DNA from: Nonomuraea sp. NEAU-A123
GTDB lineage: Bacteria; Actinomycetota; Actinomycetes; Streptosporangiales; Streptosporangiaceae
Assembly: GCF_018603905.1 (NCBI RefSeq)
Contig: NZ_JAHFZZ010000016.1
Span: 186,001 to 250,000, forward strand
Direction: 5' to 3'
Length of the DNA stretch: 64,000 bases
This document shows positions 29,720-57,755 of this stretch, piece after piece; position 1 is the stretch's first letter, and every line of letters starts with the position of its first letter. The translations under genes and the position numbers were made by a program. The notes beneath the pieces are model-generated. The model saw only the letters and a program-made list of their open reading frames with translations, did not search any database and was not told the origin of the DNA.

Positions 29720-29754
29720 GGGGCTGCGGCTACCCGCGCCTTCCGCCCCTATGC

Positions 29755-29770
29755 CTATACGTACGTATAG
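29755..29770. promoter_or_regulatory. Palindromic operator between BrkB and the TetR gene
   Basis: CTATACGTACGTATAG, a perfect 16-base palindrome, with a further CTATAC half-site near 29795. It lies between the two divergent genes, 47 bases before the TetR start. Probable autoregulatory site of the TetR protein. Confidence 0.65.
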
Positions 29771-29816
29771 TAGACTTCCTGATCAAGTAGCTGGCTATAC
29801 AAATGGCGGTGACAGC

Positions 29817-30446
29817 GTGACGATCGGACCCGACCCCGAAGACCTCACCGCCCGCGCCCGGATCAGAGACGCGGCCCTGCGGCACTTCGGCGAGCACGGG
29901 TTCGAGCGGGCCACGATCCGGGGCATCGCCGAGACCGCCGGCGTCTCCTCCGGGCTGGTACGCCACCACTTCGGCTCCAAAGAGGCGCTGCGCGAGGCCT
30001 GCGACGACTACCTGGCCAAGCTGGTCCGCCGGATCAACGACCAGGTCCGGGCCGACACCCTACCGAGTGACGTCAACTATGTGGCCGTCTCCAGGGCCGC
30101 CTTGGGGCCGTACCAACGGTATGTGGCGCGGGCCCTGGCCGAGGGCCGGGCTGAGATCGTCTTCGACGAGCTCGTGCGGATGAGCGAGGAGTGGATCGAG
30201 GAGATCGACCGGGGGCGGCCCGACCCCTCTCCTGTGCCCCGCAAGGCCCGGGCCGCGGTGGGCACCGCGATGGCGCTGTCGGTCTCGGTCCTTCACCAGC
30301 ACCTGTCCCGGGCCATGGGCGTCGAGGTGTACAGCCCGGAGGGCGACCGCCTGCTCGCCCAGGCCCTGATCGACATCTACTCGCATCCCATGCTCAGCCT
30401 GGAGGACGCCGCGAAGTATCAGGAAGTCCTCGATCAGCAGGGCTGA
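29817..30446 (+). CDS. TetR-family regulator
   Basis: 209 aa from a GTG at 29817 (TIGPDPEDLTARARIRDAAL). The helix-turn-helix follows: HFGEHGFERATIRGIAETAG, VSSGLVRHHFGSKEALREAC. The larger C-terminal domain (PYQRYVARALAEGRAEIVFD) resembles the TetR_C_33 type. It is preceded by a perfect palindrome and divergent from BrkB; it converges on the M28 peptidase gene with a 13-base overlap of 3' ends. Confidence 0.88.
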   Translation: MTIGPDPEDLTARARIRDAALRHFGEHGFERATIRGIAETAGVSSGLVRHHFGSKEALREACDDYLAKLVRRINDQVRADTLPSDVNYVAVSRAALGPYQRYVARALAEGRAEIVFDELVRMSEEWIEEIDRGRPDPSPVPRKARAAVGTAMALSVSVLHQHLSRAMGVEVYSPEGDRLLAQALIDIYSHPMLSLEDAAKYQEVLDQQG

Positions 30447-31732
30447 GGCGACCACCCGGCGGTCCCGGCCACGATACGTATGGCCGCGCGGACCAGCGGC
30501 TCCAGCCCCGCCACGTCGATCTTGTCGAGGGTGTCGGCCGAGTCGAACAAGTACATCGGCGCCGACAGGAAGTGCACGAGCGGCACGCCTTCAGGATGGA
30601 AGAACGCCCCGTCGGTGGGCGGCATGGGCGAGAACGCGTCGGGCGGGAGCACGAAGGACCGGCGCAGGCCCTCCGTCTCCAGCGTCTCGGCGACCAGCTT
30701 CTCCAGTCGCGGCATCTGGCTGGTGAACCACCATCTGACCTCGGGGTCCGCGGTGGGGACGAGCTCACCGTCCACGGCGTCGCAGCGCAGCGCGGCGTGT
30801 TCGAGATGCATTTGGAGCACCACGTCGGCCAGCAGCGGGCGGTGGCGTTCGATGAACGCCCTCGTGCCCGCCGCATGCGCCATGTGCCCCGAGGTGAACA
30901 GGAACATCAGGTTGTGCGGCCGGGCCGAGACGGGCACCTGAGACCAGTAGCGCGCGGCGGCCAGGACCAGCGCGATGCCGGAGGCGTCCTCGACGGCCGA
31001 CGCCCACGGCCCGTCGTGGTGGGAGGCGACGATGACCGTGTGCGGCGAGTCGGCGGGCAGCGTGGCGACCACGTTGTACGTGGTCACGGTGTCGGTGACC
31101 GACTGGGCGACCAGCTCGCCCGTGCAGGGCAGCCGGTCCAGGAGCCGCCGGCCGTCGGCCCCCGACAGCCACAGACCGGGAATCGGCCGTTCGATCGCGT
31201 CATAGGGCACGTAGTAGTCGCGCGTCTCCCACGGCAGCCCGGTCAGCGCCCCGATGAAGCCGGCCGCGCCCGCCTCCAGCGCGGGCTCGACGACCTCCAT
31301 CATCCGGGGCCCGAACGGGATGGTCTGGACGAGCGTGTCGAAGACGCCCTCCGGGTCGTAGGCCGAGGTCGCCAGCGTGCTGACGTACGACTGCGGCAGC
31401 TCGGTGAAGGCCAGCTCGTCCACCGCGATGTCGCCGGGCCCCGCGTCGGCGAGCGGCACGATCCTGGCGCGCAGGCCATCGGTCGGCGCGGTGTGCGGGA
31501 GCGGGAACCCGGCCAGCTCCGTGCCGTCGTCGAGCCGCAGCACCCCGGTGCCGGGCTGCCAGCGGGGCACCTCCACCGGCTCCAGCGCGACCTCAAGCCC
31601 GAATTCGGTCAGCCGCTCGGCCAGCCACCGCTCGGTCCATATATCGGCCGGATAGCCGGGTCTGCGGATGCCCCGCGACACGACGGTCTCGATCCAGCCG
31701 AGCATCTCAGCGGCGGAAGGCACGTGCTTCAT
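30434..31732 (-). CDS. M28-family (aminopeptidase-like) zinc hydrolase
   Basis: 432 aa from an ATG at 31732. An earlier ATG at 31786 lies inside a putative operator. Metal-ligand region: HTVIVASHHDGPWASAVEDA and SGIALVLAAARYWSQVPV match the M28 catalytic region (H.D.....A.DNASG), with ED in place of the usual metal-binding D; then FLFTSGHMAHAAGTRAFIER, HLEHAAL. No signal peptide, so likely cytosolic unless exported by another route. It shares a 17-bp motif with the GntR promoter at 43011, suggesting co-regulation with the sugar operon. Confidence 0.75.
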   Translation of the reverse strand: MKHVPSAAEMLGWIETVVSRGIRRPGYPADIWTERWLAERLTEFGLEVALEPVEVPRWQPGTGVLRLDDGTELAGFPLPHTAPTDGLRARIVPLADAGPGDIAVDELAFTELPQSYVSTLATSAYDPEGVFDTLVQTIPFGPRMMEVVEPALEAGAAGFIGALTGLPWETRDYYVPYDAIERPIPGLWLSGADGRRLLDRLPCTGELVAQSVTDTVTTYNVVATLPADSPHTVIVASHHDGPWASAVEDASGIALVLAAARYWSQVPVSARPHNLMFLFTSGHMAHAAGTRAFIERHRPLLADVVLQMHLEHAALRCDAVDGELVPTADPEVRWWFTSQMPRLEKLVAETLETEGLRRSFVLPPDAFSPMPPTDGAFFHPEGVPLVHFLSAPMYLFDSADTLDKIDVAGLEPLVRAAIRIVAGTAGWSPQPC

Positions 31733-31780
31733 GAGCCTGATCCAACCATTGACAGCGGTCCTTTGTGAAGCGACAGTTTC

Positions 31781-31797
31781 GGTCATCCGTACAACTT
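31781..31797 (-). promoter_or_regulatory. GntR-regulon site between the M28 and cutinase-like genes
   Basis: Reversed, these bases read AAGTTGTACGGATGACC, identical at 16 of 17 positions to the site upstream of the GntR gene at 43011-43027. It sits 49 bases before the M28 start and 12 before the cutinase-like start. The ACGG-N4-CCG core forms a short dyad. Confidence 0.6.
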
Positions 31798-31808
31798 GTG
31801 GAGGCCGT

Positions 31809-32636
31809 ATGAAGCTTCTCGTGGCCGTCGTCGTGCTCATGTTAGGGGTTGTGGCCATACCGGCCCAGGCCGCGGACACCATCGAGGCGCACTACAAGGT
31901 CGCCGGTCCTTGGGCGGTCGCCACCGCCGACGCGCCGGGCTACAAGCTCTATTACCCGGCCGACCTCGGCGCCGGGGGTGTCAAGCATCCGATCATCACC
32001 TGGGGCAACGGCACGAACGCCGTGCCCACGCAGTATCCCGGGCTGCTCAACCAACTCGCCTCCTGGGGCTTCGCCGTGGTCGCCTCGACCGACACCACGA
32101 CCGGCACCGGATCCGAGATGATCGCCGCCGCCCAGTATCTGATCGACCGGAACACCGACAGCTCCAGCGTCTTCTACGGCAAGCTCGACGTGACGAAGGT
32201 CGGCGCGGTCGGCCACTCCCAGGGCGCCGGTGGCGCGGTGAACACCGCCACCAAGTCCGGCGGCCTCATCGACACCGTCATCCCCATCGCGCTGCCCGCG
32301 CCGATCTGGGTGAGTTCGGGAGACAAGTTCTACGTCGACCAGCTCACCTGCCCGGTGCTGTTCGTCAGCGGCGCCAACGACACCCTCATCTCTCCCAACT
32401 CGGCCCTCCAGACGTACTACGGCCAGGTCCCCGGCGCCGCGGCGAAGGCGCAGCTCAAGGGTGCCGACCACAACACGATCCAGGGCACCGGCGGCGGCTT
32501 CCTCGGTTACGTGACGGCCTGGCTGATGTACCAGCTCCAGGGCGACACCTACGCCAGGGGCGCCTTCGTCGGCACCGCTCCGGAGCTCAACACCAACGCC
32601 AACTGGCAGAACCAGGTGGAGAAGAACCTGCCCTAG
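31809..32636 (+). CDS. Secreted cutinase/lipase-like alpha/beta hydrolase
   Basis: 275 aa from an ATG with GTGGAGG five bases upstream. Signal peptide residues 1-21 (LLVAVVVLMLGVVAIPAQA). Catalytic triad visible: nucleophile in VGAVGHSQGAGGAVN, Asp in FVSGANDTLISP, His in KGADHNTIQG. Resembles polyester- and lipid-cleaving hydrolases of the dienelactone-hydrolase group. Its stop codon interlocks with the stop of the convergent phosphotriesterase-like gene. The upstream GntR-type motif suggests control by the sugar-operon regulator. Confidence 0.8.
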   Translation: MKLLVAVVVLMLGVVAIPAQAADTIEAHYKVAGPWAVATADAPGYKLYYPADLGAGGVKHPIITWGNGTNAVPTQYPGLLNQLASWGFAVVASTDTTTGTGSEMIAAAQYLIDRNTDSSSVFYGKLDVTKVGAVGHSQGAGGAVNTATKSGGLIDTVIPIALPAPIWVSSGDKFYVDQLTCPVLFVSGANDTLISPNSALQTYYGQVPGAAAKAQLKGADHNTIQGTGGGFLGYVTAWLMYQLQGDTYARGAFVGTAPELNTNANWQNQVEKNLP

Positions 32637-33577
32637 CGGCGCAGTGCGAAGGCGGCGCGCGGGTTCCCGGTCAGCGCCGCCTTGGCCACCTCACCCAGAC
32701 CCGCGGCCTCCAGCCGCGGCACGAACCGCTCCAAGAGGTACGGCAAGCCGGGGCCGCCACCCAGACTCGGCCAGTACGACCTGCGCGCCAGGTCCATCCC
32801 GAACAGCACCCGATCCCCCAGCCCGTGCCCGGCGAGCTCGGCGACGAGCGAGACGACGTCACTGTCCGGGCCGTACTTGATGCGTCCGGGCCGATCAAAG
32901 GCCAGATAAGCCCCTCTCTCCGCCAAGGAGATGAGATATCCGGCGTCGGGATTGTGGTCGATGTGCCCGAGCACGACCCGGTCGGCCGCCACCCCTTCGG
33001 CGGACAGCGCGTCGAGCAGTTCGTGCCCCATCGTGCCCTTGTCGCAGTGCGTGACGACCGGCACCCCGCTCCGACGCGCGGCGGCGGCCACCGCGCTGAT
33101 CAGCCGCGCCACCCCTCGCCCGAACGCGTGGTACCCAGTGGCGATCTTGATAGCCCCCGCGCGGGCCGACGACCGCCGCACCAGCGGCCCCACCAGCCCG
33201 TACTCGTCCATGCCCAGCTCGATCTCCGTCACGAGCAGTTCGGTGATCTCGTCGACCGAGTAGTGGTGCAGCCAGTGCGCGTCGCTGTAGTAACCGCTCT
33301 TGTGGAACCCGGTCACCGCGATCACGTGCAGCCCGGTCCGCTCCGCCAGCTTCTTCATCAGCGACGGGCTGCGGCCGAAGCCGAGCGGCGTCATCTCGAC
33401 CACCGCGGACAGGCCGAGCCGCTGCGCATCCGTCACCTCCACGACGGCGGCGTCGAGGGAGTCGAGCCGGTAGTCCGGCTCGTTGCGCACCGGCCAGTCA
33501 CCGGTCATGAACAGGTGCTCGTGCGCGTAAGTGATGCCGATCTCCTCGACATCTCCCAGCACGGTCCGGACCGTCAC
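32633..33577 (-). CDS. Phosphotriesterase-family metal hydrolase (probable lactonase)
   Basis: 314 aa from a GTG overlapping the FAD gene stop by four bases. A TIM-barrel amidohydrolase with all five metal-ligand positions: HxH in ITYAHEHLFMTGDW; bridging Lys in AGAIKIATGYHAF; His in VPVVTHCDKGTMG; His in VVLGHIDHNPDAG; Asp in VLFGMDLARRSYW. Family members cleave lactones, esters or phosphotriesters. As the last gene of the operon it could open a sugar lactone made by the oxidoreductases upstream. Confidence 0.87.
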   Translation of the reverse strand: MTVRTVLGDVEEIGITYAHEHLFMTGDWPVRNEPDYRLDSLDAAVVEVTDAQRLGLSAVVEMTPLGFGRSPSLMKKLAERTGLHVIAVTGFHKSGYYSDAHWLHHYSVDEITELLVTEIELGMDEYGLVGPLVRRSSARAGAIKIATGYHAFGRGVARLISAVAAAARRSGVPVVTHCDKGTMGHELLDALSAEGVAADRVVLGHIDHNPDAGYLISLAERGAYLAFDRPGRIKYGPDSDVVSLVAELAGHGLGDRVLFGMDLARRSYWPSLGGGPGLPYLLERFVPRLEAAGLGEVAKAALTGNPRAAFALRR

Positions 33578-34791
33578 AGCAGCGCTCCTCCTTCTCGCAG
33601 CCGCGTACGCAGCAGCTCTGTGTCCACCGCCGCGGGCTCCACCCCCGCCTGTACGGCCAGCGCCGCCGCCGTCCCCGCCGCCTGCCCCATCGCCATGCAC
33701 TGCCCCATGGACCGGGCGGAGGCGTGGGCGTCGTGCGTGGCCGACAGAGAGCGCCCGGCCACGATCAGCCCGCCGACCTCGACGGGGAGCAGGCACCGGT
33801 ACGGGATGCCGTAGGTGCCGAAATCGTGGACGTACTCCCAGCGGGTGGCGTCCCCCGAGTCGTGGTCCTCGATGGGCGCGCCGCACCGCGCGATCGTGTC
33901 GGGAAAATCCCTCCCGGCCAACACATCATCAGAAGTCAGGACATATCGTCCCACCAGGCGTCGTGACTCCCGTACGCCGATCCGTACGGACGTGCTCAGC
34001 AGCACGGCCGAGCCGTACCCCGGCACCTTCGCCCGCAGGAAGGCGACATAGTCGCGGACCTGCCGCCGCCCCACCCGCTCGGCCTCGGCCAACTGGACCG
34101 GATCGGTCGGATCGAGGCCGGTCACCCGCGTGAGGTTGGTGTGCACGATCCCGTCGTGCACGGTCCTGTGCACGGACCCCTCGCGCCTCGGCAGGTCGGT
34201 GTCGGCCATCAGCGCGTGCAGCTCCGCCGTGCTGGTGGCGGACAGATCGACCCCGCCGAGCCGGAAGGTGGCCGTCATCGGCTGGAGCCGCATCCCCGGG
34301 CGTTCGAGGGTGGCGCCGGCCCGCCAGGCCACCTCGGCGTCCCCGGTGGCGTCGATCACCACCTGGGCCTTGACCAGGAACCGGCCCGCCACGGTCTCCA
34401 CCACGACGCCGGTGCCGGGCACGAAGTCGCAGACCCTGGCGTGCAGCAGCGCGTCCGGGACCAGCGCGTCCCAGACCAGCTTGAGCTCCTCGGGCTCGTA
34501 GGTCACCCCGGTGCCCGCGCCATAGGTGTTGGGCCGCTCGAAGGCGGCTCCGGCCTCGAAGAGCCGCTCGCACACCTCCCAGCCGACGCCGCCGACGACC
34601 CGCCGCGAGACGGGGCCGGGGGCGTAGAAGCCGTAGAAGGTGTCGAGCACCGCGGCGCCCGTACCGCCGAGGAAGCCCGCCGACTCCACCAGCAGGCACG
34701 ACGCCCCGGAACGCACCGCGGCGACGGCGGCCGCGCACCCGGCGCTGCCTCCGCCCGCGACCACCACGTCGCCTTCCCACAGCACGTTCAT
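33574..34791 (-). CDS. FAD-dependent oxidoreductase (FAD_oxidored family)
   Basis: 405 aa; ATG overlaps the SDR stop by four bases. N-terminal Rossmann motif GDVVVAGGGSAGCAAAVAAV, then the family pattern SAGFLGGTGAAV. Strand-helix KAQVVIDATGDAEVAWRAGA and the C-terminal FAD motif PVEVGGLIVAGRSLSATHDA, then MAMGQAAGTAAALA complete the fold. No Fe-S Cys cluster. Likely oxidises a sugar or sugar acid alcohol, passing electrons to an unknown acceptor. Confidence 0.85.
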   Translation of the reverse strand: MNVLWEGDVVVAGGGSAGCAAAVAAVRSGASCLLVESAGFLGGTGAAVLDTFYGFYAPGPVSRRVVGGVGWEVCERLFEAGAAFERPNTYGAGTGVTYEPEELKLVWDALVPDALLHARVCDFVPGTGVVVETVAGRFLVKAQVVIDATGDAEVAWRAGATLERPGMRLQPMTATFRLGGVDLSATSTAELHALMADTDLPRREGSVHRTVHDGIVHTNLTRVTGLDPTDPVQLAEAERVGRRQVRDYVAFLRAKVPGYGSAVLLSTSVRIGVRESRRLVGRYVLTSDDVLAGRDFPDTIARCGAPIEDHDSGDATRWEYVHDFGTYGIPYRCLLPVEVGGLIVAGRSLSATHDAHASARSMGQCMAMGQAAGTAAALAVQAGVEPAAVDTELLRTRLREGGALL

Positions 34792-35480
34792 CGCAGGTGC
34801 CACCCTCCGTCGACGGGAATGACCGCGCCCGTGGTCCGCCCGGACGACGGCGACAGCAGCCAGAGCACGGCCTGCGCGACCTCCTCCGGCTGGCACGGCC
34901 CGGCGCCGAGCGGCATCAGGGAGGGCAGCTTGGCCTTGACGGACTCGGAGGTCTGGGCGCGGCGGCTCATCGGGGTGGCCACCAGCCCGGCCGAGATCAG
35001 GTTGACGCGTACGCCGTGCGGCGCCGCCTCGCGGGCCGCGGTCCTGATCAGCGGGATCAGCGCGCCCTTGGCGGAGGCGTAGGCCACGGTGCGGAAGTCG
35101 TCGTCGAGCGATGAGCCCAGCGCCGAGCCGATCACCACGATCGAGCCGCCCTCCCGCATCGCCGGGATCGCCGCGCGCAGCAGCCGGAACACCGACTCGT
35201 GGTTGACCCGGTGCACCTCGTGCCACGCCGTGTCGGTGCACTCGACCACGCCGCCGTCGCCGAGCGAGCGGCCCGACATGCCGACCGCGTGCACGACGCC
35301 GGAGATCTGCCCGTGTGCGGCCGTCGCCTGGGCCAGGGCCTTCTCCGCGTGCCCCGGGGCGGTGATGTCTATCCCGCCGGCCAGGTCCACGCCGAAGGCG
35401 GCCCCGCCGGTGGCCTCGACCGCCTCCAGGCAGGCGCGGCCGATGCCGCCGTCCGAGCCGGCCACCAGTACGGCGCTCAT
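34788..35480 (-). CDS. Short-chain dehydrogenase/reductase
   Basis: 230 aa from an ATG at 35480. Cofactor motif AVLVAGSDGGIGRACLEAVE (a TGxxxGIG variant), VVHAVG in place of NNAG, catalytic Ser in GGSIVVIGSALGSSLDD, and the YxxxK pair in TVAYASAKGALIPLIR. C-terminal PVDGGW. NAD(P)-dependent oxidation or reduction of a hydroxyl or keto group, here probably on the operon's sugar intermediate. Four-base overlaps on both sides. Confidence 0.88.
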   Translation of the reverse strand: MSAVLVAGSDGGIGRACLEAVEATGGAAFGVDLAGGIDITAPGHAEKALAQATAAHGQISGVVHAVGMSGRSLGDGGVVECTDTAWHEVHRVNHESVFRLLRAAIPAMREGGSIVVIGSALGSSLDDDFRTVAYASAKGALIPLIRTAAREAAPHGVRVNLISAGLVATPMSRRAQTSESVKAKLPSLMPLGAGPCQPEEVAQAVLWLLSPSSGRTTGAVIPVDGGWHLR

Positions 35481-36241
35481 GGTTTCCTGAGCACGTCGGC
35501 GGCGCGGCGGGCGTGCTCGAGGTAGGCGGCCTCGAACAGCTCCTCGGAGCGCGGGGCGCCGACGAGCTTGGCGCTGGAGATGACCGGTGGGATCCAGCCG
35601 CCCGCGACGAGCAGCTCGGCCGTACGGACCTTGATCTCGTTGACCACGGAGACCGCGGCCAGCGTGCTGCCCGGACCCACCGGCTCGGCCAGCCCGTCCA
35701 CGGAGCACAGCGCGTCACCGACCGGGGTGCACAGGTCGATCACCACGTCGGCGTGGTCGGCGAGCCGGGTCCCGCTGGGATGGCCGGGCTCGACGGCCGT
35801 GGTCTCCCGCATCGACGTCACGGCCACCACGCGCAGTCCCGCCTTGCGCAGTCCCATCGCCATCTCGATCGGCACGGCGTTCAGCCCGCTGACGCTGAAC
35901 ACGATGGCCGCGTCGGTCGGCCGCAGCTCGAAGTTGGCCAGGATGGCGTCGGCGAGCCCTTCGACCCGCTCGATGAACATCGCCTGCCGCATCCCGTTCG
36001 ACCCGGCCACCTGGGTGTAGAACGTCGTCGACAGATCCACGATGGGATGGAAACCGGGATAGGAGCCATAGCGGGGGAACATCTCCTCCACACCCATCCG
36101 CGAATGTCCGGTGCCGAAGGTGTGCACCACGCCCCCGCCGCCGATGGCCGCGGCAGCGATCCGGGCGGCCGCGGCAAGCGACTCCTCCTGTGTTCGCTCG
36201 ATCTCGCCGAGCAACTCCATCGCGCGCCGTATCCATTTCAT
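35477..36241 (-). CDS. SIS-domain protein (sugar isomerase/phosphosugar-binding)
   Basis: 254 aa. Begins KWIRRAMELLGEIERTQEES and carries a SIS (sugar isomerase) domain: GGGVVHTFGTGHSRMGVEEM, AAIVFSVSGLNAVPIEMAMG, LRVVAVTSMRETTAVEPGHP. Members of this UPF0309-like group sit in carbohydrate operons as isomerases or phosphosugar-binding enzymes. Placed between ROK kinase and SDR, it probably acts on the phosphorylated sugar. Overlaps ROK and SDR by four bases each. Confidence 0.87.
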   Translation of the reverse strand: MKWIRRAMELLGEIERTQEESLAAAARIAAAAIGGGGVVHTFGTGHSRMGVEEMFPRYGSYPGFHPIVDLSTTFYTQVAGSNGMRQAMFIERVEGLADAILANFELRPTDAAIVFSVSGLNAVPIEMAMGLRKAGLRVVAVTSMRETTAVEPGHPSGTRLADHADVVIDLCTPVGDALCSVDGLAEPVGPGSTLAAVSVVNEIKVRTAELLVAGGWIPPVISSAKLVGAPRSEELFEAAYLEHARRAADVLRKP

Positions 36242-37092
36242 TCAGATCTCCTCCCATAGAGCGCGGCGCCGATCGCCCCTGCCATCGGGCCGAGTACGGC
36301 AGGTAGCACCGCGATGTCCCCAATAAGCGGACGTCGCCGCTCAAGTTCCGTGTTCAGGGCGGATCGCATGAGATCGAGCGCGCCGGCGACCCCGCCGCCC
36401 ACGACCACCGTGCCGACGCCGAAGAACGCCGCCGCGTCGCCCAGCGCGATGCCGAGCGCCCAGCCGGCTCTGGAGAGCACGCCCTGTGCCCGCCCGTCAC
36501 CCGCCCTGGCGGCCTCGGCGACGGCCTCGGGCGGGCCGGAGCCGAAGGCCCGCACGATGCCGGACGCGCCGGTGAACGTCTCCACGCAACCCCGGTTGCC
36601 GCAGCAGCACACCGGCCCCCAGGGGGCGACCGTGACGTGCCCGATCTCGCCGAGATTGTCGCGAGGGCCGACGAGGATCCCGCCGCGCAGCGCCACCGCT
36701 CCGCCCACCCCGGTCCCGAGCACCGCGAACAGCACGTCGGGCAGCCCGCGAGCCGCCCCCAGGAGCAGCTCCGCGAGCCCGAACGCGCGGGCGTCGTTGA
36801 CCACGCTCACCGGTGTCCCGGTCAGGGCGCCCAGCCGCGAGCCGACCGGATAGCCGTCCCAGTCCCCGGGCGGGTTCGGCACGAACAGCGCGGTCCCGGT
36901 CGCCCTGTCCACGTGGCCGGGCAGCCCGATCCCGATGCTCTCCACGCGCCGGGCGGCCAGCGAGGCCACGAACGTCATCGTCTCGTCAGGGCTCGGCGGC
37001 GTCGGGACGGTGCCCATACTGACCACCTCGTCCTCTTCGAGCAGCACCCATTTGATGTACGTTCCGCCGACGTCGATCCCGAGCCGCGTCAC
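36238..37092 (-). CDS. ROK-family sugar kinase
   Basis: 284 aa from a GTG at 37092 overlapping the GH gene stop. ATP motif 1: RLGIDVGGTYIKWVLLEED. Catalytic Asp region VSVVNDARAFGLAELLLGAA. Motif 2: VLGTGVGGAVALRGGILVG. Zinc-binding ROK signature GHVTVAPWGPVCCCGNRGCV then ETFTGASGI. No N-terminal HTH, so a kinase rather than a repressor. Likely phosphorylates the hexose or amino sugar released by the upstream glycosidase. Confidence 0.9.
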   Translation of the reverse strand: MTRLGIDVGGTYIKWVLLEEDEVVSMGTVPTPPSPDETMTFVASLAARRVESIGIGLPGHVDRATGTALFVPNPPGDWDGYPVGSRLGALTGTPVSVVNDARAFGLAELLLGAARGLPDVLFAVLGTGVGGAVALRGGILVGPRDNLGEIGHVTVAPWGPVCCCGNRGCVETFTGASGIVRAFGSGPPEAVAEAARAGDGRAQGVLSRAGWALGIALGDAAAFFGVGTVVVGGGVAGALDLMRSALNTELERRRPLIGDIAVLPAVLGPMAGAIGAALYGRRSE

Positions 37093-39161
37093 AGCCCGAT
37101 CCTCAGGACCCGCGACTCGAACCCGGCGTCGTCGGGCGCCTTGGCCGGGCGGAACGGCTCGACGCCGAGCAGCCGCAGGTAGGCCAGCAACGGCTGGGAG
37201 TGGCTGTGCAGGTTGGCGACGGGGTACGCCTGCATGGCGACGCCGACTTCCGCCAGGTCCCACGTACGGCCCGGCCGCTCGGTCTCGGGTGCCAGGTAGG
37301 CGTCGGGGCCGGACAGCGTGCCCTCCCATACGTCCGGATAGGCAGCCGTATGGGCGGCCAGGGACATCCGGCGCCACCACTTCCAGCCCAGCTCGGGGAC
37401 GTGCTCGGCGGCGGCCCAGATCAGCGTCATGTTGATCGCGTACCAGATCGTGCCGATCCCGCCGGGACCGTAACCGCCCCGGTCGGGCCAGCGCAGCCGG
37501 GCGCCCAGCGGCGAGTCGGCGGCGGAGGTCCGCTCGATCGTGTGCAACAGCTCCACAGCCCGCTCGGGTGACGCGGCACCGCTCAGAATTGCCCAAGGCT
37601 GCACTTCCAGCCACAGGTCGGACTCTCCGACGACCGCTCCCGGGCCGTACGCGCGGCGGTACCACCGCCCGTTCCACTCGCCCGCCACCAGGTCGCGCAG
37701 CTCCTCGCCGAGCTTGCGGGCCTCGGCCGCGGTCGCGTGGTCGCCGAGCCGCTCGGCCAGGATCGCGTAGCGCGGCAGGACCCAGGCGGCCATGGCCGAG
37801 TTCAGGACCGATTCGCCGTGCGAGATCATCACGTCGCGGGCCACGCCGCTCTCGGTGATGGCCATGTCGTTCCAGTCAGCGTTCAGTATCCGCAGGTGGC
37901 CGTGCTCTCCCCGGCCCACCACGTCGGTGAGGAACCTGAACTGCCGGCGCAGGTTCTCGCCGAGCGGCACCGGCTCGGCCCCGTGGACCGGGTGGTACGG
38001 CACGGCGTCGGCGAAGGCCGCCACGTCGCCCGTCGCGCTCAGGTATTCGGCCGCCAGCCACAGGGCCCACAGGTTCTGGTCCGAGGGGCGGAACAGGTCG
38101 GTCCATGGCTGCTTGTCCGGTCTGAGCGCATAAGGCAGGTCGCCGTCGGGGCCGCCCCAGGCGCAGGTGTTGCGCAGCACGGACAGCGCCAGGTCCGGCT
38201 CGATGTACACCAGCGGCAGCGCGTGCTGGAGCGGGTCGCGCGCGGCGCCGTTGAAGCCGTGCCGGAAGGAGTAGCACGAGCCCTGGTCGAGGGTGTGCCC
38301 GCCGAGCACGCCGTCGGCACAGGCCGCGCCGGTCAGCAGCGCCGCGTGCCACGGGACCTCCCGCTCGGCCTCGGGCGCCCGCGCCGCGACCGCCTTCGGC
38401 AGCCGGTCGCGCAGCGCGGCGATGCTGCCGTCGAACGCCCCCGCCGCCTCGCCCGCCCGGCCGCTCGCCTCGCCGTCCGTCCAGTAGCCGGACGCCGGGA
38501 CTCCGCCGTGCGTCCCGCCGCTGGACGACGGGGCTGCGGTCCCGCCGTCCAGCAGGCCATATCTCAGCTCCAGAAACCGCTCTTCGCCCGCCGCCAGATC
38601 CAGGGGTACGGTCAAGCGGCCGGACCCGGTCCTGGTCCCGCCGATGAGTTCGAGCTCCAGCCCGGGATCCTCGGTCGGCCGCGCACCGGTGATGAGCTCG
38701 ACCCGGGCGGCTCCGGGCGTCCACTCCTCGGTCAGCTCCAGCCGTACCGGCTCGTCGAGCAGGTTGCGCACGCGCAGCCGGATCAGCACCCACGGCCACT
38801 CGCCCTCGGGGCACAGCACCGTACGCTCCAGCGTCATCCGGTCATCGGCGACCCGGACGATCGCGAACGTCGGCCCGAAAATCCGCTCTGATCCCGAAAT
38901 ATCGGTGGAAAGGGTCCCGGCGCGGGTGACGCCCGTGCCCCGGGTGAGCCACAGCAGCCCGGTGTGCTCGTCGAAGAGGTCGCTGAGCCCGTAGTTGTCC
39001 GTGACCAGCGTGATACGCCGGTTCCCGACATGGAGGAAATGCCGGCGGGTGAGCGGATCCAGGACCGGATCCCATTCGGCGCGTGGGTCGCGCTCCTGGT
39101 CCATCGTGTACGAGAAGGCAGGCAGCCCGTACGCCGTGGTCCATTCCCCGAACGCGCTCAT
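37089..39161 (-). CDS. GH94-like glycoside hydrolase/phosphorylase
   Basis: 690 aa from an ATG at 39161. Residues 1-260 are a beta-sandwich (GEWTTAYGLPAFSYTMDQER, GTGVTRAGTLSTDISGSERI) and 290-650 an (alpha/alpha)6 barrel (GAACADGVLGGHTLDQGSCY, SFRHGFNGAARDPLQHALPL). The motif HLRILNADWNDMAITESG resembles the GGDWNDGMN acid catalyst of cellobiose and chitobiose phosphorylases. No signal peptide, so it acts in the cytosol on the imported oligosaccharide. Whether hydrolase or phosphorylase cannot be told; the family link is by layout and the WND motif. Confidence 0.75.
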   Translation of the reverse strand: MSAFGEWTTAYGLPAFSYTMDQERDPRAEWDPVLDPLTRRHFLHVGNRRITLVTDNYGLSDLFDEHTGLLWLTRGTGVTRAGTLSTDISGSERIFGPTFAIVRVADDRMTLERTVLCPEGEWPWVLIRLRVRNLLDEPVRLELTEEWTPGAARVELITGARPTEDPGLELELIGGTRTGSGRLTVPLDLAAGEERFLELRYGLLDGGTAAPSSSGGTHGGVPASGYWTDGEASGRAGEAAGAFDGSIAALRDRLPKAVAARAPEAEREVPWHAALLTGAACADGVLGGHTLDQGSCYSFRHGFNGAARDPLQHALPLVYIEPDLALSVLRNTCAWGGPDGDLPYALRPDKQPWTDLFRPSDQNLWALWLAAEYLSATGDVAAFADAVPYHPVHGAEPVPLGENLRRQFRFLTDVVGRGEHGHLRILNADWNDMAITESGVARDVMISHGESVLNSAMAAWVLPRYAILAERLGDHATAAEARKLGEELRDLVAGEWNGRWYRRAYGPGAVVGESDLWLEVQPWAILSGAASPERAVELLHTIERTSAADSPLGARLRWPDRGGYGPGGIGTIWYAINMTLIWAAAEHVPELGWKWWRRMSLAAHTAAYPDVWEGTLSGPDAYLAPETERPGRTWDLAEVGVAMQAYPVANLHSHSQPLLAYLRLLGVEPFRPAKAPDDAGFESRVLRIGL

Positions 39162-39958
39162 TTCCGTACCCCTCCCAGGGTCAGCCCCGCGACGTAGTAG
39201 CGCTGCAGCAGGAACATCAGCACCAGCGGCGGCACCGCCGTGATCAGGGCCGCGGTGCTGACCAGGCCGATGCTGAAGTCGTACTCCGTCTGGATCTGCG
39301 CGAGCCCCACGGGCAGCGGCCAGAGGCCGGGATCGTTGGCCACGATGAGCGGCCACAGCAGGTTGTCCCACTGCGCGAGGAACTGCAGCAGGAAGAGCGT
39401 GAGCAGCGCGGGCCGCAACAGCGGCGCGGCTATGCGGACGAAGATCCGGAACTCGCTCGCGCCGTCCACCCGCGCCGACAGCAGCAGCTCATGCGGGATG
39501 GCCAGAGCGAACTGACGGACCAGGAACACCCCGAACGCGCTCATCATGAACGGCACGATCATGCCCTGGTAGGAGTTGATCCAGCCCAGCTCCTTGACGA
39601 TGAGGTACATCGGCACCAGCACCACGATCGGCGACAGCGAGAGCGTCCCCACGATGAGCGCGAACAGCACCCCGCTGCCGGGGAATCGGAGCTGCGCGAG
39701 CGCGTACCCGGCGGCCGAGGAGAAGATCACTTCGAGGACGCCGATGCCGAGCGCGAGGATCAGGCTGTTGCGCAGATAGACGGGGAAGTCACCCTGGTTG
39801 AACAGCTGGGAGACGTGCTCGCCCAGTTGGGACACGTCGAAGGCGAACCCGCCAAGATCGGTCGCGTCCGACGCGGACGAGACCGCGAACATCGCGTACA
39901 CCGGCAGCAGCAGGACGGCCACGACCAGCGTCAGCAGCGTGCCACGGACCACCTTCAC
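39158..39958 (-). CDS. Sugar ABC transporter permease (MalG type)
   Basis: 266 aa from a GTG at 39958. Six membrane segments and the EAA loop with the conserved G in LLSARVDGASEFRIFVRIAA, PLLRPALLTLFL. First segment is a typical MalG start (TLLTLVVAVLLLPVYAMFA). Partner of the permease upstream; overlaps both neighbours by four bases. No ATPase gene is in the operon, so a shared MsiK-type ATPase encoded elsewhere is expected. Confidence 0.92.
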   Translation of the reverse strand: MKVVRGTLLTLVVAVLLLPVYAMFAVSSASDATDLGGFAFDVSQLGEHVSQLFNQGDFPVYLRNSLILALGIGVLEVIFSSAAGYALAQLRFPGSGVLFALIVGTLSLSPIVVLVPMYLIVKELGWINSYQGMIVPFMMSAFGVFLVRQFALAIPHELLLSARVDGASEFRIFVRIAAPLLRPALLTLFLLQFLAQWDNLLWPLIVANDPGLWPLPVGLAQIQTEYDFSIGLVSTAALITAVPPLVLMFLLQRYYVAGLTLGGVRK

Positions 39959-40872
39959 CCTTCCTCGCCTCCCCTGAGCACCCTGAACTGCACCAGCGAG
40001 AGCAGCAGCATGGCCACCAGCAGGACCATCGCGATCGCCGAGGCGTAGCCCATGCGCTCGAACCCGAAGCCGGTCGCCCACAGGTAGAGCGGCAGCACCT
40101 CGGTGGCGCCCGCCGGTCCGCCCTTGGTCAGCAGGAAGGCGGGCACGAACGACTGCATCGCCCCGACCACCGCGATGACCAGCACGAACAGCAGCGTGCG
40201 GCGCAGCAGCGGAAGCGTGATGCGGTAGAAGATCCGCACCGGACCGGCGCCGTCGAGCTCGGCCGCCTCGAACACGCTCAGCGGCAGCCCCTGCAACCCC
40301 GCGGTCAGGATGATCACGAACAGTCCGAGGTGCTTCCACGTGGTCATGATCACCAGAGCCCAGAGCGCGAGCCCCTCGTCGGTCAGCCACGGCTTCGGCG
40401 CGGCCCCGACCAGCCCGATCAGCGCGTTCGCCAGGCCCTTCTCGGCGAAGATCACCGACCACACCATCGAGGTGGCCACCAGCGGCATCGCCGCCGGGAT
40501 CATGACCAGGCCGCGGAGGAAGGCGTTGTACCTGCCCGGCTTGCTCAGCGGCACCGCGATCGCCAGGCCGAGCACGATCGACGGGACCACCGACCCGACC
40601 GTGTAGGCGGCGGTGACGCGGGCCGAGTTCCAGAAGCCGGGGTCGCCGAGCATCCTGCGGTAGTTGTCCAGGCCGGTCCATTCGGGCGTCCCGGCCAGGT
40701 CGTAGCTGGTGAAGCTGAGATACACGGCCACGACGAACGGCACGAGCCAGAAGACCAGGAAGTAGACCGCCGCCGGCAGGGCCAGCAGCCCGCCGGTTCG
40801 GGCCTCCGCCCATCGCTGGCCCTTGCCCGAGACCCGGGCGACGGGCGGCACCAGCCGTAAGGACACCGTCAC
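39955..40872 (-). CDS. Sugar ABC transporter permease (MalF type)
   Basis: 305 aa from a GTG at 40872. Hydrophobic segments at residues 28-50, then TVGSVVPSIVLGLAIAVPLS, and so on; EAA loop EAAELDGAGPVRIFYRITLP. MalF/UgpA-like features include SLSFTSYDLAG-type periplasmic start and WTGLDNYRRMLGD. Works with the MalG-type permease and the lipoprotein upstream as an importer. Confidence 0.92.
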   Translation of the reverse strand: MTVSLRLVPPVARVSGKGQRWAEARTGGLLALPAAVYFLVFWLVPFVVAVYLSFTSYDLAGTPEWTGLDNYRRMLGDPGFWNSARVTAAYTVGSVVPSIVLGLAIAVPLSKPGRYNAFLRGLVMIPAAMPLVATSMVWSVIFAEKGLANALIGLVGAAPKPWLTDEGLALWALVIMTTWKHLGLFVIILTAGLQGLPLSVFEAAELDGAGPVRIFYRITLPLLRRTLLFVLVIAVVGAMQSFVPAFLLTKGGPAGATEVLPLYLWATGFGFERMGYASAIAMVLLVAMLLLSLVQFRVLRGGEEG

Positions 40873-42155
40873 AGCGTGATCCGCATCGCCTGGTCGAAGT
40901 CCGCGGCCGCCTGCTCGGGCGTCTTCTTGCCGAAGGCGACCGCGTCGGCGGCGTCGGTCAGCGACTTGGCCATCTCGTTCCACACCGGCGTCTGCGGGCC
41001 GAAGTCGGCGTGCGGGGCGGCGGCCGCCATGATGTCCAGCGCCTTCTGGTCGGCGCCCGTCAGCTTCTCCCAGCCCTTGACCGGCGTGAGCAGGCTGGCG
41101 TCCTTGAGCTGCTTGGCCGCGACGTCCTCGCGCTGGAGGTAGTCGACGAAGTGCCAGGCGGTGTACGGCAGCTTCGACTGCTTGGCCACCGCCCAGCCCC
41201 AGGTGTAGGCGGGGGCGACGGGCTGCCCCCCGTCCCAGCGCGGCAGCGGGGCGATGTCGAAGGCCTTGCCGAACGTCAGCTTGGGGTTCAGCGTGGGGAA
41301 CAGGTCCATCGCGAACAGCCCGGAGACCAGCATGGCCGCCTCCCCGGTGGCGAACAGCCCGAAGCCGGACAGCGGGTTCGACAGCTTCGCGTTGCCCAGG
41401 CTCCCGTAGTAACGCAGCGCCTCGACACCCGCGTCAGTGGCCAGCGTCGCCTTGGCCGCGTCGGCACTGAGTATCCCGCCGCCCTTCCCCTTGACCAGGG
41501 CGAGCAACTGCATCAGCGTCCACTGCGGGTTGCCCAGGATCCACTGCAGGCCCACCTTCTTGCCGTCGGCCGAGGTCAGCCTCTTGCTGTACTCGGCGAC
41601 CTCTTCCCAGGTCGTGGGCGGCTTGTCCGGGTCGAGCCCGGCTTCTATGAACCTGTCCCGGCGGTAGTAGAGGTAGCAGATCGTGTAGTCGATGGGGACG
41701 CCGTAGACCTTGCCCTCGTACGACAGCGAGCCGATCGCGTGCGGGTCGTAGTCCTGGATCAGCGCCTTCTCGTCGGCCACCCCCATGGCCTTGGGGATGA
41801 TCGGGGCGAGCCGGCCCTTGCGCGCGTGGCCGGGGATGGTCCAGCCGCCGATCTTGAACAGGTCGGGCGGCACGTCACCGGCGAAGGCGGTCAGCAGCTT
41901 GGCGTCGAGCTGGGCCACGGGCACGTAGAGCGGGGTGATGTCGACACCGCCGAACTCCTGCATGTATTTGCGCAACAGCGGGGTGAAGACCGCGTCGTAC
42001 GACTTGGTCTGGTGCAGCCAGACGGAGATCTTTCCCCGCGGCACCCCGTCGGCGGGCACGGTGGCCACCGGATCCGCGCCGCAGGCGGCGAGCACGCCGG
42101 ACGCCGTGGCCAGCGCGGCGGTTCTGAGCAGGTTGCGCCGGGTCAACATGGTCAT
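40869..42155 (-). CDS. Sugar-binding lipoprotein of the ABC importer
   Basis: 428 aa from an ATG with CCGGAGG six bases upstream. Twin-arginine-like signal MTMLTRRNLLRTAALATAS ending in a lipobox before Cys25 (VLAAC). Mature part follows cluster D/B binding proteins: ISVWLHQTKSYDAVFTPLLR, FKIGGWTIPGHARKG, WEEVAEYSKRLTSADGK, PAYTWGWAVAKQSKL. First gene of the nine-gene unit, probably exported folded through Tat. The ligand is unknown, likely an oligosaccharide. Confidence 0.92.
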   Translation of the reverse strand: MTMLTRRNLLRTAALATASGVLAACGADPVATVPADGVPRGKISVWLHQTKSYDAVFTPLLRKYMQEFGGVDITPLYVPVAQLDAKLLTAFAGDVPPDLFKIGGWTIPGHARKGRLAPIIPKAMGVADEKALIQDYDPHAIGSLSYEGKVYGVPIDYTICYLYYRRDRFIEAGLDPDKPPTTWEEVAEYSKRLTSADGKKVGLQWILGNPQWTLMQLLALVKGKGGGILSADAAKATLATDAGVEALRYYGSLGNAKLSNPLSGFGLFATGEAAMLVSGLFAMDLFPTLNPKLTFGKAFDIAPLPRWDGGQPVAPAYTWGWAVAKQSKLPYTAWHFVDYLQREDVAAKQLKDASLLTPVKGWEKLTGADQKALDIMAAAAPHADFGPQTPVWNEMAKSLTDAADAVAFGKKTPEQAAADFDQAMRITL

Positions 42156-42229
42156 GCTCAACCTCCGGAAGGCAGGGCTCCGCCACCGACCGCTAGGTGG
42201 CGAGGTGTTGGGGGGTGGTGATGGGCTGG

Positions 42230-42997
42230 TTACTGGCCCATCAGGGCGTTCTTGGCGTCGTTGAGCTCCACGGAGAACACGGCGAAGTCGCCGCGCGCGT
42301 GGCGGATGGTGTATTCGAGCGCGACGCCGCTCTCGGTGCACGTGTTGCGGGCGGTCGCCAGCAGGGCGGCGGCGAGGGGAACCTGCAGCAGCTCGGCGAG
42401 CCGGTAGTCGGCGTTGACCGCCCCGATGGTCTCCCTGCCGCTCGCGGGAGTCAGTCCGTACTTCATGCGCAGCAGGTCGTACAGCGAGCCGGTCAGGTCC
42501 TCGTCGAGGATGCCGGGCAGCAGCTCGGCGGGCAGGTGGGCGCTCTCCAGCATGCAGGGCGCGCCTTCGATCAGCCGCAGCCGCTCGACGAAGACGACCT
42601 GCTGCGCCTCCCGCAGGCCGAGCGCCACGGCGACGTCGGCGCCCGCCGGCTGCAGATGGGCCTTGAGCACCCGCGTCGTCGGCTTGCGGCCGAGCCGCGC
42701 CATCGTCTCGGTGAAGCCGACCGGGCGCGCCCCCAGCTCGGGGGCCACGGCCAGCGGCGCCGTGTAGGTGCCGCTGCCCTGCCTGGCCACCAGCAGGCCC
42801 TCCTGCACCAGGTCGCCGATCGCCCGGCGGGCCGTCGCCCGGCTCACGCCCGCGTAGACCATGAGGTCCTTCTCGGCGGGGATCAGCGTGTCGGGCTCGC
42901 AGTCGCGTATGACCGCCCGCAGGCGCTCGCGTAGCTGGTAGTAGAGCGGCACAGCGGCTGACGGGTCGAGACCCAGCCGACGTTCCCAGTCGGTCAT
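42230..42997 (-). CDS. GntR-family regulator, HutC subfamily
   Basis: 255 aa from an ATG at 42997. DNA-binding part: SAAVPLYYQLRERLRAVIRD, IPAEKDLMVYAGVSRATARR, AIGDLVQEGLLVARQGSGTY. Ligand part (UTRA, residues 90-245): RKPTTRVLKAHLQPAGADVA and YDLLRMKYGLTPASGRETIG, typical for binding sugar phosphates or amino sugars. It is followed after 75 bases by the binding-protein gene. It should regulate the nine-gene operon and, from the shared motif, the M28 and cutinase-like genes. Confidence 0.9.
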   Translation of the reverse strand: MTDWERRLGLDPSAAVPLYYQLRERLRAVIRDCEPDTLIPAEKDLMVYAGVSRATARRAIGDLVQEGLLVARQGSGTYTAPLAVAPELGARPVGFTETMARLGRKPTTRVLKAHLQPAGADVAVALGLREAQQVVFVERLRLIEGAPCMLESAHLPAELLPGILDEDLTGSLYDLLRMKYGLTPASGRETIGAVNADYRLAELLQVPLAAALLATARNTCTESGVALEYTIRHARGDFAVFSVELNDAKNALMGQ

Positions 42998-43010
42998 ACG
43001 CTCACGTCCT

Positions 43011-43027
43011 AAGTTGTACGGACGACC
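43011..43027 (+). promoter_or_regulatory. GntR-regulon site upstream of the GntR gene
   Basis: AAGTTGTACGGACGACC, 14 bases upstream of the GntR start. The core ACGG-acga-CCGT (43018-43029) is a dyad. The same sequence, one base different, occurs at 31781-31797 on the other strand. Confidence 0.65.
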
Positions 43028-43106
43028 GTATCTTTTCTGTTCGACCTGGATGGTGTCAACCACTCGTTGTGTATCGTGCTGAGATCGAGGGCCAGGTGGA
43101 GGATCT

Positions 43107-44498
43107 GTGTGGGGTGTCGCGAGTGCGGTGATCTGCGCGTCCCTCGTGCTGGCGCCGCACGGAGAGCACGCCGCCAGAGCCGCCACCACCGTCGACTTCA
43201 ACGGCGACGGCTTCGAGGACTACGCGATCTCGGCCCCCGCGGGCACGGTCGGCCACACCCTTAAGGCCGGATATATCGCCATCTTGTATGGCGCGGCCAG
43301 TGGGGTCGATCCCGCCCGGCGCCGGATCCTCCACCTCGACAGCGCCAACGTGCCGAACGACCCCGTGGCCGCGGACGCGTTCGGGGCCCGCACGGCCGCC
43401 GGCGACTTCAACGCCGACGGCTACACCGATCTGGCCGTCGGCTCGTACAACCCCTTCGATCTGGACCGGCGGTTCGTCACCCTGTTATGGGGCGGCAAGG
43501 ACGGGCTGGCGCTGGGCACCCCGCTGATCGACCCCCCGCGCGCCGGGGTCCCGCCGGACCTGGTCGACCGGGCCGAGGGCCGGGAACTGGCCGCCGGGGA
43601 CTTCGACGGCGACGGCAGTGACGACCTGGCCGCCACCGGCGAGAGGGGGACGGTGAACATCTTTCACGGCCCGTTCCAGCGTGACGGCCGCCCCGCCCGC
43701 AAGGTCACCCTGGGCGGGTCCTACGAGCAGCCGACCAGGCTGGTCGCGGGCGACCTGACCGGCGACGGCAAAGACGACCTGGTCACCACGCACGCCTGGG
43801 AGGAGACGGCCGAGCCGTCCCTGTTCTGGAAGGGCGGCCCGCAGGGCCTCGCCGGGCGGCCGGAGCGGCTGGACGCGGCCACCACCGCCACGGTGGGCGA
43901 CATCGACGGCGACCACTACGGCGACCTGGTGATGCGCGTCATCCCCGGCGGCTTCGTCGACACGCTCAAGAGCGACAAGGGCACCATCAAGGTCCTGTAC
44001 GGGTCGGCGGACGGCCCCGGCCGTCGCACTCGTACCCTCACCCAGGACAGCCCCGGCGTGCCGGGGACGGGAGAGCGAGGCGATCAGCTCGGCTTCGATC
44101 TGGCCGCCGGGGACGTGAACGGCGACGGGTACGCCGACCTCGCCGCCGGGCTGCCCGGCAAGGCCGGTGGCGGTGCCGTGCTGCTGTTCAGCGGTGGCAG
44201 GGACGGCCCGGCCGGGGCGCGGCTGTTCACGCAGGCCAGTCCGGGCGTGCCCGGGACCGCCGAGGACGGGGACCGGTTCGGCGCCTCCGTCAGCCTGCGC
44301 GACCTCAACGGCGACGGCAAGGCCGATCTCGGCGTCGGTGCCCCAGGAGAGAGCGGCACGGCCGCCGGCACCGGCGCGGCCTGGGTGCTGCCCGGCTCAA
44401 CCGGCGGTCTGACCACCGATGGCGCCCGCTCGTTCGACCCGGCCGCTCTCCAGGCGTCCGACACGGGCTCCCACCTGGGAATGTGGTCCGCCAAGTAG
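43107..44498 (+). CDS. Secreted FG-GAP repeat (integrin-like beta-propeller) protein
   Basis: 463 aa from a GTG after GGTGGAGG. Signal peptide residues 1-26 (VASAVICASLVLAPHGEHAA). About seven calcium-binding repeats carry DxNGDG-type loops: VDFNGDGFEDYAISAPAG, AGDFNADGYTDLAVGSY, AGDFDGDGSDDLAATGE, AGDLTGDGKDDLVTT, GDIDGDHYGDLVMRV, AGDVNGDGYADLAAGLP, RDLNGDGKADLGVGAPG. Extracellular, binding role unknown; common in Streptomyces relatives. Divergent from the GntR gene, with the operator between. Confidence 0.9.
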   Translation: MWGVASAVICASLVLAPHGEHAARAATTVDFNGDGFEDYAISAPAGTVGHTLKAGYIAILYGAASGVDPARRRILHLDSANVPNDPVAADAFGARTAAGDFNADGYTDLAVGSYNPFDLDRRFVTLLWGGKDGLALGTPLIDPPRAGVPPDLVDRAEGRELAAGDFDGDGSDDLAATGERGTVNIFHGPFQRDGRPARKVTLGGSYEQPTRLVAGDLTGDGKDDLVTTHAWEETAEPSLFWKGGPQGLAGRPERLDAATTATVGDIDGDHYGDLVMRVIPGGFVDTLKSDKGTIKVLYGSADGPGRRTRTLTQDSPGVPGTGERGDQLGFDLAAGDVNGDGYADLAAGLPGKAGGGAVLLFSGGRDGPAGARLFTQASPGVPGTAEDGDRFGASVSLRDLNGDGKADLGVGAPGESGTAAGTGAAWVLPGSTGGLTTDGARSFDPAALQASDTGSHLGMWSAK

Positions 44499-44613
44499 GT
44501 CCGCGGACGGGATCGTCCGGCGGGTGCGCGGGCCGAAAGGTCGTTATCGGCTGAACCGACTCCCAAAGCTACGCGTACCTACTCACGTCCGGACACGTGC
44601 CCCAGGAGGTGTC

Positions 44614-45777: not shown

Positions 45778-45780
45778 TCC

Positions 45781-45861: not shown

Positions 45862-45897
45862 GAATCGATCTACTAGCCATCATAGTAAAGGCTCAGA

Positions 45898-57751: not shown

Positions 57752-57755
57752 GACG

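Follow-up and report, generated by a model that had tools for sequence, protein, structure and literature searches.

Oxidative pathways of the Entner-Doudoroff type carry a sugar through a dehydrogenase, a lactonase, a dehydratase and 2-keto-3-deoxy-6-phosphogluconate (KDPG) aldolase. Here we describe a locus of Nonomuraea sp. NEAU-A123 (RefSeq assembly GCF_018603905.1, contig NZ_JAHFZZ010000016.1, positions 186,001 to 250,000, a stretch of 64,000 nucleotides hereafter called the window) in which one packed unit encodes a GntR/UTRA regulator, a CUT1-type sugar importer, a protein resembling glycoside hydrolase family 94 (GH94), and a core made up of a ROK-family kinase, a SIS-domain protein, a short-chain dehydrogenase/reductase (SDR), a flavin adenine dinucleotide (FAD)-dependent oxidoreductase and a phosphotriesterase (PTE)-family hydrolase, and in which the gene of a secreted esterase converges on this unit. 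The locus appears to encode a variant of oxidative sugar-phosphate catabolism. The reaction types that we propose for it are those of the Entner-Doudoroff pathways, and Eda is encoded in cis in two other loci with the same core, but the protein families are different (SIS, PTE and PF12831 flavoprotein), dehydration would probably precede lactone opening, and the Nonomuraea unit carries no aldolase. Judged by gene content, the kinase-SIS-SDR-FAD-PTE core is a portable module of Actinomycetota, Deinococcota and Bacteroidota, mostly without the GH94-like gene.

Individual proteins of the unit also have described relatives. The cellobiose and chitobiose phosphorylases of GH94 share with the window protein the full-length fold and the catalytic aspartate, but the window protein has 690 aa and apparently does not keep their phosphate ligands. 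The PTE-family phospho-furanose lactonases (3msr, 3pnz; NF045706) include the closest solved relatives of the window PTE, which keeps their metal and K/R/Y residues but, at 187.1 bits, falls far below the NF045706 cut-off of 630. The esterase belongs to the PF12740 family together with the PETases and lipase 2fx5, its nearest relative in the Protein Data Bank, but sits behind an operator matching that of a sugar operon. For the importer, MsiK of Streptomyces is an example of a shared ATPase. The SIS protein falls in the family (PRK02947) of NagS (SCO4393), an N-acetylglucosamine 6-phosphate (GlcNAc-6P) dehydratase whose product, 6P-chromogen I, is a furanose; NagS is related to MurQ, is inactivated by alanine replacement of any one of H53, R64, E94 and D179, and in its bona fide form is confined to Streptomycetaceae (PMC12680351). 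The window protein shares these four residues, but is 33% identical to NagS, is without S91 and N228, and lies in a kinase-SDR-FAD-PTE operon rather than beside dmdR1.

Gene organization

A first-pass annotation of the window had joined nine genes on the minus strand, at 32633-42155, into a sugar catabolic unit. Recomputing the nine open reading frames (ORFs) from the sequence bore out this count exactly: all eight joints are 4-base overlaps, in which the stop of the upstream gene shares four bases with the start of the next (Table 1). The motif is GTGA at four joints (binding protein to permease 1, permease 1 to permease 2, GH94-like to ROK, and FAD to PTE) and ATGA at the other four (permease 2 to GH94-like, ROK to SIS, SIS to SDR, and SDR to FAD). 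Pfam confirmed the family names given earlier (SBP_bac_1, BPD_transp_1 twice, Glyco_hydro_94, ROK, SIS_2, adh_short_C2, FAD_oxidored and PTE), and the description as a sugar catabolic unit, with an operon-like architecture, is supported. The nine-gene unit left out its first gene, which encodes the GntR/UTRA regulator and precedes the binding-protein gene by a gap of 74 bases, together with the operator and the convergent esterase gene with its like operator. The earlier interpretation of the unit as a whole is partly supported.

Overlaps of four bases are ordinary within actinomycete operons, and what is notable here is their number and conservation, not their mere presence. Among relatives, 59 of 67 testable joints keep the overlap. 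These joints come from nine of the ten named Nonomuraea loci examined: L028 has lost most genes and offers no testable joint, L029 has lost the ROK-PTE genes and offers three, and L108, L109 and L113 fall outside the count. The exceptions lie at permease 1 to permease 2 (4 of 9), SDR to FAD (2 of 8), ROK to SIS (1 of 8) and FAD to PTE (1 of 8). In surrounding Nonomuraea DNA, 9 of 66 co-directional pairs overlap by four bases, an underestimate because the same ORF picker saw only five pairs, with two overlaps, inside the cluster. We rejected the overlaps alone as proof of a single transcript, although we infer that the unit is transcribed as one. A consensus promoter scan of 31500-43300 found none, with 0.6 expected, and the TTGACA before GntR was likewise not listed; the same interval holds two terminator-like sites, against 1.9 expected. 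No Rfam model matched at gathering scores within 28000-46000.

The core module in other bacteria

The core set recurs in other Actinomycetota as well as in Deinococcus and Bacteroidota. We tabulated 33 loci with a common query set, of which 12 are Nonomuraea GH94-like loci, 15 are further loci with the module and 6 lack it (L113 was added later; L093, which repeats L032, was not counted; and L040, L059-L073, L074 and L075 stand outside the 33). All five core genes are present in 11 of 13 Nonomuraea GH94-like loci (10 of the 12 tabulated, plus L113). Kinase, SIS, SDR, FAD and PTE genes also occur together in 11 of the 15 other module loci, from Actinomycetota, Deinococcus, Persicobacter and Spirosoma, with an FGGY instead of a ROK kinase in three of them (L052, L090 and L092).

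A search of plasmids with the SIS protein matched 42 records, including Persicobacter, Spirosoma and Haliscomenobacter at 47-53% identity. Of the six regions read, three contain the module; it is absent from L039 and L041, and in the unannotated L040 SIS was the one core gene seen. The three module neighborhoods read GntR-SDR-ROK-SIS-FAD-PTE (L036), GntR and SDR-ROK-SIS-[TIM]-FAD-PTE (L037), and SDR-SIS-FAD-PTE (L038), and all sit near polysaccharide-utilization genes; in L041, nagA lies beside a SIS gene of the PRK02947 family. The FAD protein matched 134 records, of which four regions were read, two with the module and two (L074, L075) without. Among 296 sampled Actinomycetota genomes, 28 (source included) had an FAD match at 1e-20. 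Places were fetched in 19 of the 27 others, eight genomes being outside the fetched set; L054-L058 hold at least SIS, FAD and kinase genes, and 15 places (L059-L073) do not. The five matches that adjoin SIS and kinase genes are 49-71% identical, and those in the rest of the 19 genomes do not adjoin them. Deinococcus aetherius has a CUT1 importer with FGGY kinase-SDR-FAD-PTE-Eda-SIS, the PTE being annotated as hypothetical, and a second Persicobacter cluster (L053) reads GntR-SIS-SDR-FAD-ROK-creatininase-Eda. The creatininase-family protein of that cluster (L053:19628-20317), which is without PTE, is a possible non-homologous lactonase. Importer genes of the RbsB/A/C type are found in L054, L056 and L057.

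The earlier remark that an ATPase and an aldolase are missing holds for the unit itself. In 5 of the 15 other module loci an aldolase does lie beside the core, namely Eda (L052 and L053) or DeoC (L055-L057; 214 bits in L056, cut-off 117). Both enzymes act on a deoxy compound and free glyceraldehyde 3-phosphate from it, and their presence therefore fits the route proposed below. Two Eda-like proteins are encoded elsewhere in the source genome. The UgpC-family model NF008653 gave 139 rows in this genome, two of them over the cut-off and both outside the locus, so candidates for the ATPase exist; by analogy with MsiK, the importer would be expected to use a shared one.

Two Nonomuraea species provide natural deletions. 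At the locus of N. basaltis (L029) the GntR, importer, GH94-like and esterase genes are present without the ROK-PTE block, and a second block, ROK-SIS-SDR-PTE-FAD, with a 66% identical SIS protein, lies elsewhere in the genome, which suggests that the GH94-like operon is tied to the core. In N. dietziae (L028) only the GntR, GH94-like, SIS and esterase genes remain at the locus.

Residues and folds of the predicted enzymes

The nearest solved chain to the window SIS protein is NagS (9eol, 2.3e-32), and the four essential residues correspond to H46, R57, E91 and D176; the alignment shows them in 6 further SIS proteins of the module as well. Because of this family membership and these residues, elimination of water appears more likely than the plain isomerization of the monomer assumed in the first-pass annotation. 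We rejected the idea that the protein is NagS itself, since both the substrate contacts and the marks of orthology speak against it: NagS orthologs are delimited by at least 58.7% identity and linkage to dmdR1, and here the identity is 33% and the neighbors are ROK and SDR genes. At 1e-50, 9 of 394 genomes from the class encode the SIS protein (the source among them), and seven of these belong to a single other genus. Three more SIS proteins of this kind (28-34% identical) occur in the source genome on contigs C21 and C17 (L002, L003 and L004); one of these matches has a stop inside the aligned frame.

The AlphaFold model of the GH94-like protein (pLDDT 87.5) matches cellobiose phosphorylases over its full length, giving the GH94 fold from end to end. 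D432 corresponds to Asp490 of CgCBP, and W430, R308 and D309 to its Trp488, Arg367 and Asp368; all four are invariant in 49 sequences. The phosphate ligands R351, H666, T731 and G732 of CgCBP (PMC5501786) are apparently not kept, as judged by sequence only. A profile alignment places Ala575 at H666, and N650-L651 occupy the position just before the last helix (652-664) of the model, where T731-G732 lie; in another alignment, which opens gaps at these places, no arginine aligns to R351. As the phosphate ligands seem to be absent, hydrolysis is more probable for this protein than phosphorolysis.

A search for the GH94-like gene returned ten named Nonomuraea records and three divergent proteins from metagenome-assembled genomes. 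The gene is present in 10 of 59 genomes (source included), all of one genus, and at 1e-60 in 3 of 394 genomes of the class: the source, a congener, and G638, which belongs to another genus and at its locus (L107) has the GH94-like gene without the core. That the gene and the core always occur together was rejected, as L033, L034, L035 and L107 carry the GH94-like gene alone. Persicobacter L036 has both a true GH94 and a GH94-like gene (30423-32591 and 26187-28580), lying some 6 and 10 kb downstream of SIS, and the second of these proteins, the GH94-like one, appears also to be without the phosphate site. A Caulobacteraceae homolog (L035:123-2441, 43%) has by eye an apparent signal peptide, so that a secreted or periplasmic form may exist.

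The window PTE keeps the ligands of a binuclear metal site (AHEHL), and the Lys, His, His and Asp columns are occupied in 14 of 14 module proteins. K244, R275 and Y278, which we take to be the phosphate triad of 3pnz, are complete in 6 of the 14 module proteins (window, L030, L032, L054, Spirosoma and Deinococcus); the E. coli homolog 4lef has the arginine alone. These residues support the lactonase-type reading of the first-pass annotation, and make the protein a probable phospho-1,4-lactonase. For the FAD protein, the Foldseek and VIA match lists are broad, with many flavoproteins scoring alike. No Pfam match to an N-terminal DNA-binding domain (repressor HTH) was found in the ROK protein, which matches N-acetylmannosamine kinase models, but below their cut-offs.

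Regulator, paired operators and the convergent esterase

Alignment of eleven upstream regions (the window and 10 relatives) showed poor conservation except for TTGACA and AAAGATACGGTCGTCCGTACAA directly before GntR, the start of which was placed from the conserved ATG-ACC-GAC region, the ATG then being confirmed. Allowing up to 3 mismatches, the 17-base operator matches the 12.7-Mb genome at 18 places, and its reversed control at 14. Operator 1 is the sole perfect match, and operator 2, about 11 kb away in the same window, is one of two matches with 2 mismatches (joint second-best). The pair recurs at the same two positions in 13 of 13 Nonomuraea GH94-like loci examined (L023-L032, L108, L109 and L113), with 0-1 mismatches in operator 1 and 1-2 in operator 2, and it is kept where the operon is reduced (L028, L029) and where the esterase gene is about 2.5 kb away (L109). 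TTGACA lies 17 or 18 bases before a -10-like hexamer at 26 of 26 sites in the window and 12 relatives, and at two further sites. This arrangement suggests that the GntR/UTRA protein binds both operators and is probably an autoregulated repressor.

The esterase gene is present in all 13 of these loci, and in the window its 3' end overlaps the PTE gene, the last of the operon, by 4 bases. Divergent from it across operator 2 is the gene of an M28-family peptidase of 432 aa, found in 10 of the 13 loci and adjoining the esterase gene in 9. This position and recurrence suggest that the peptidase may share the control of operator 2, and it possibly belongs to the same regulon.

Proposed role and alternative explanations

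We propose that one GntR/UTRA regulator governs the locus as a regulon of two transcripts, which serves the use of an ester-bearing oligosaccharide or glycoside, a reading that we favor while granting it slightly less than even standing. The secreted PETase/cutinase-family esterase would strip acyl groups outside the cell, the CUT1 ABC importer, with an ATPase from elsewhere, would take up the sugar, and the GH94-like protein would split it, probably with water. The ROK kinase would then form a 6-phosphate, which the SIS protein, by chemistry of the NagS/MurQ type, may dehydrate across C2-C3, leaving a 3-deoxy furanose or enol. The FAD enzyme and/or the SDR would oxidize the furanose form at C1 to a 1,4-lactone phosphate, the PTE-like protein would open it to a phospho-acid of the 2-keto-3-deoxy type, and an aldolase of the KDPG or DeoC type, acting in trans in Nonomuraea, could cleave this acid. 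It is the simplest route that employs every gene of the unit, and it draws on gene order, overlaps, protein families, predicted folds, active-site residues, the operator pair and the recurrence of the core across phyla, as read from sequence; from these we infer the substrate and the final acid, the sequence of steps and the place of each oxidoreductase in it. In its boldest form the proposal is of a new Entner-Doudoroff-like pathway in at least three phyla, in which SIS dehydrates the sugar 6-phosphate first, the PF12831 flavoprotein oxidizes the 3-deoxy furanose to a phospho-butenolide or lactone, and PTE opens this product, so that Eda or DeoC receives a 2-keto-3-deoxy phospho-acid, with, in Nonomuraea, a tie to the secreted PETase-family esterase and an acylated sugar as its natural food; this fuller version is conceivable but on balance doubtful. 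The first-pass annotation knew of no named pathway with this set of genes, and our literature search, which covered few subscription papers, found none either, nor any assignment of the cluster to a known sugar; of the papers it listed, PMC12680351 on NagS alone seems to bear on the locus.

The same gene set is used if, as read earlier, SIS is a plain aldose-ketose isomerase and the isomerized phosphate is oxidized to the lactone that PTE opens. NCBIfam names the family sugar isomerase domain-containing, and other proteins of the SIS fold are isomerases, some of them listed in PMC12680351. We nevertheless regard this as unlikely, because the closest characterized member found is a dehydratase (PMC12680351) whose four essential residues are all kept, because on chemical grounds a ketose phosphate should not be directly convertible to a 1,4-lactone, and because a deoxy product is suggested by the aldolases of the KDPG and DeoC types that 5 of the 15 other module loci encode. 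The esterase behind a like operator, and an FAD fold resembling C=C reductases and hydroxylases, would also suit a unit for the breakdown of a plant or microbial metabolite in acylated glycoside form, the FAD and SDR proteins then acting on its aglycone or on an unusual sugar, deoxy or branched, instead of on an ordinary hexose phosphate; the RbsB/A/C importers in three loci and the KDPG aldolase or DeoC in five point instead to sugar-phosphate chemistry, as do the phosphate ligands kept in the window PTE, and we hold it to be quite improbable. More improbable still is that SIS acts like MurQ, as an etherase that takes an O-3 substituent off a 6-phospho amino sugar, the unit then serving amino-sugar or cell-wall-derived disaccharides. 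The relation of NagS to MurQ (PMC12680351), the sub-threshold match of ROK to N-acetylmannosamine kinase models and the chitobiose phosphorylases among GH94 relatives all speak for such an activity, but the FAD and PTE steps would be left unexplained, no NagA- or NagB-type gene is among the ten unit genes (the genome was not searched for them), and the nagA seen beside a SIS gene of the same family is in a locus without the module (L041).

Several observations weigh against the favored regulon and its dehydration-first route. The window SIS protein has M88 and K225 in place of the substrate contacts S91 and N228, and PMC12680351 reports that dehydration of GlcNAc-6P by three NagS homologs (25.7-35.7% identity) was negligible or absent, so that another substrate than GlcNAc-6P is to be expected. 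Of the 14 module PTE proteins, 8 have an incomplete K/R/Y triad (L055 and L056 each miss two of its residues), and the FAD protein might reduce rather than oxidize, since its model is also close to C=C reductases. GH94-like genes also occur without the module, as noted; a GH94-type gene is found in 1 of 15 other module loci (L036), the other 14 having none within 12 kb of SIS; and the esterase is found in 0 of these 15. Four of the 15 are without a core gene in the fetched DNA (L038, L053, L057 and L058), L038 having no kinase and L053 a creatininase in place of PTE. By Pfam, the ten-gene Nonomuraea unit encodes neither aldolase nor ATPase in cis, and the N. dietziae genome has no FAD match at 1e-20, which argues against a strict dependence of the GH94-like operon on the core.

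The families concerned, namely UPF0309 SIS proteins, PF12831 flavoproteins, PTE-like lactonases and GH94-like proteins, are now annotated mainly by fold, and because the core recurs as a block in three phyla, one series of assays could name a function for several of them. The module also offers a role for distant NagS homologs, for which PMC12680351 found none. Since the shared operator ties the esterase to a defined sugar operon, it may provide a route to the natural substrate of a PETase-family enzyme.

Other features of the window

Table 1. Features of the Nonomuraea locus, in window coordinates.
Feature	Position	Strand	Basis or remark
M28-family peptidase	30434-31732	-	
Operator 2, TTCGGTCATCCGTACAA, before esterase gene	31778..31794	+	2 mismatches against operator 1; TTGACA at 31749-31754
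Secreted alpha/beta hydrolase, PETase/cutinase/lipase family	31809..32636	+	PF12740 5.6e-17; lipase 2fx5 1.5e-40
PTE-family hydrolase, probable phospho-1,4-lactonase	32633..33577	-	PTE 1e-50; best solved relatives 3msr, 3pnz
FAD-dependent oxidoreductase (PF12831)	33574..34791	-	Fold like geranylgeranyl-reductase and fumarate-reductase flavoproteins, among others
SDR, 230 aa	34788..35480	-	adh_short_C2 1.4e-47
SIS-domain protein, PRK02947/UPF0309 family, probable phosphosugar dehydratase	35477..36241	-	NF002805 261.3 bits, cut-off 135
ROK-family sugar kinase	36238..37092	-	ROK 9.1e-49, residues 4-278 of 284
GH94-like protein, 690 aa, probable hydrolase	37089..39161	-	GH94 fold; catalytic-acid Asp kept (D432)
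ABC permease 2	39158..39958	-	BPD_transp_1 7.7e-17
ABC permease 1	39955..40872	-	BPD_transp_1 6.6e-17
Extracellular solute-binding lipoprotein, CUT1 type	40869..42155	-	SBP_bac_1 9.8e-34; twin-arginine and lipobox-like start by eye
GntR/UTRA transcriptional regulator, first gene of unit	42230..42997	-	UTRA 1.1e-35, GntR 2.2e-12
Operator 1, TACGGTCGTCCGTACAA, inverted repeat TACGG-TCGT-CCGTA	43014..43030	-	First base shared with -10-like hexamer
-35-like TTGACA of predicted operon promoter	43054..43059	-	18 bases before -10-like AAAGAT, 43030-43035

A second packed cluster lies at 52447-60001 on the minus strand of the window and encodes a WYL-domain regulator, a Peripla_BP_4 binding protein, an ABC_tran ATPase, a BPD_transp_2 permease and an AMP-binding enzyme. 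With longest-ORF starts, the WYL regulator and Peripla_BP_4 ORFs of this cluster overlap by 4 bases.

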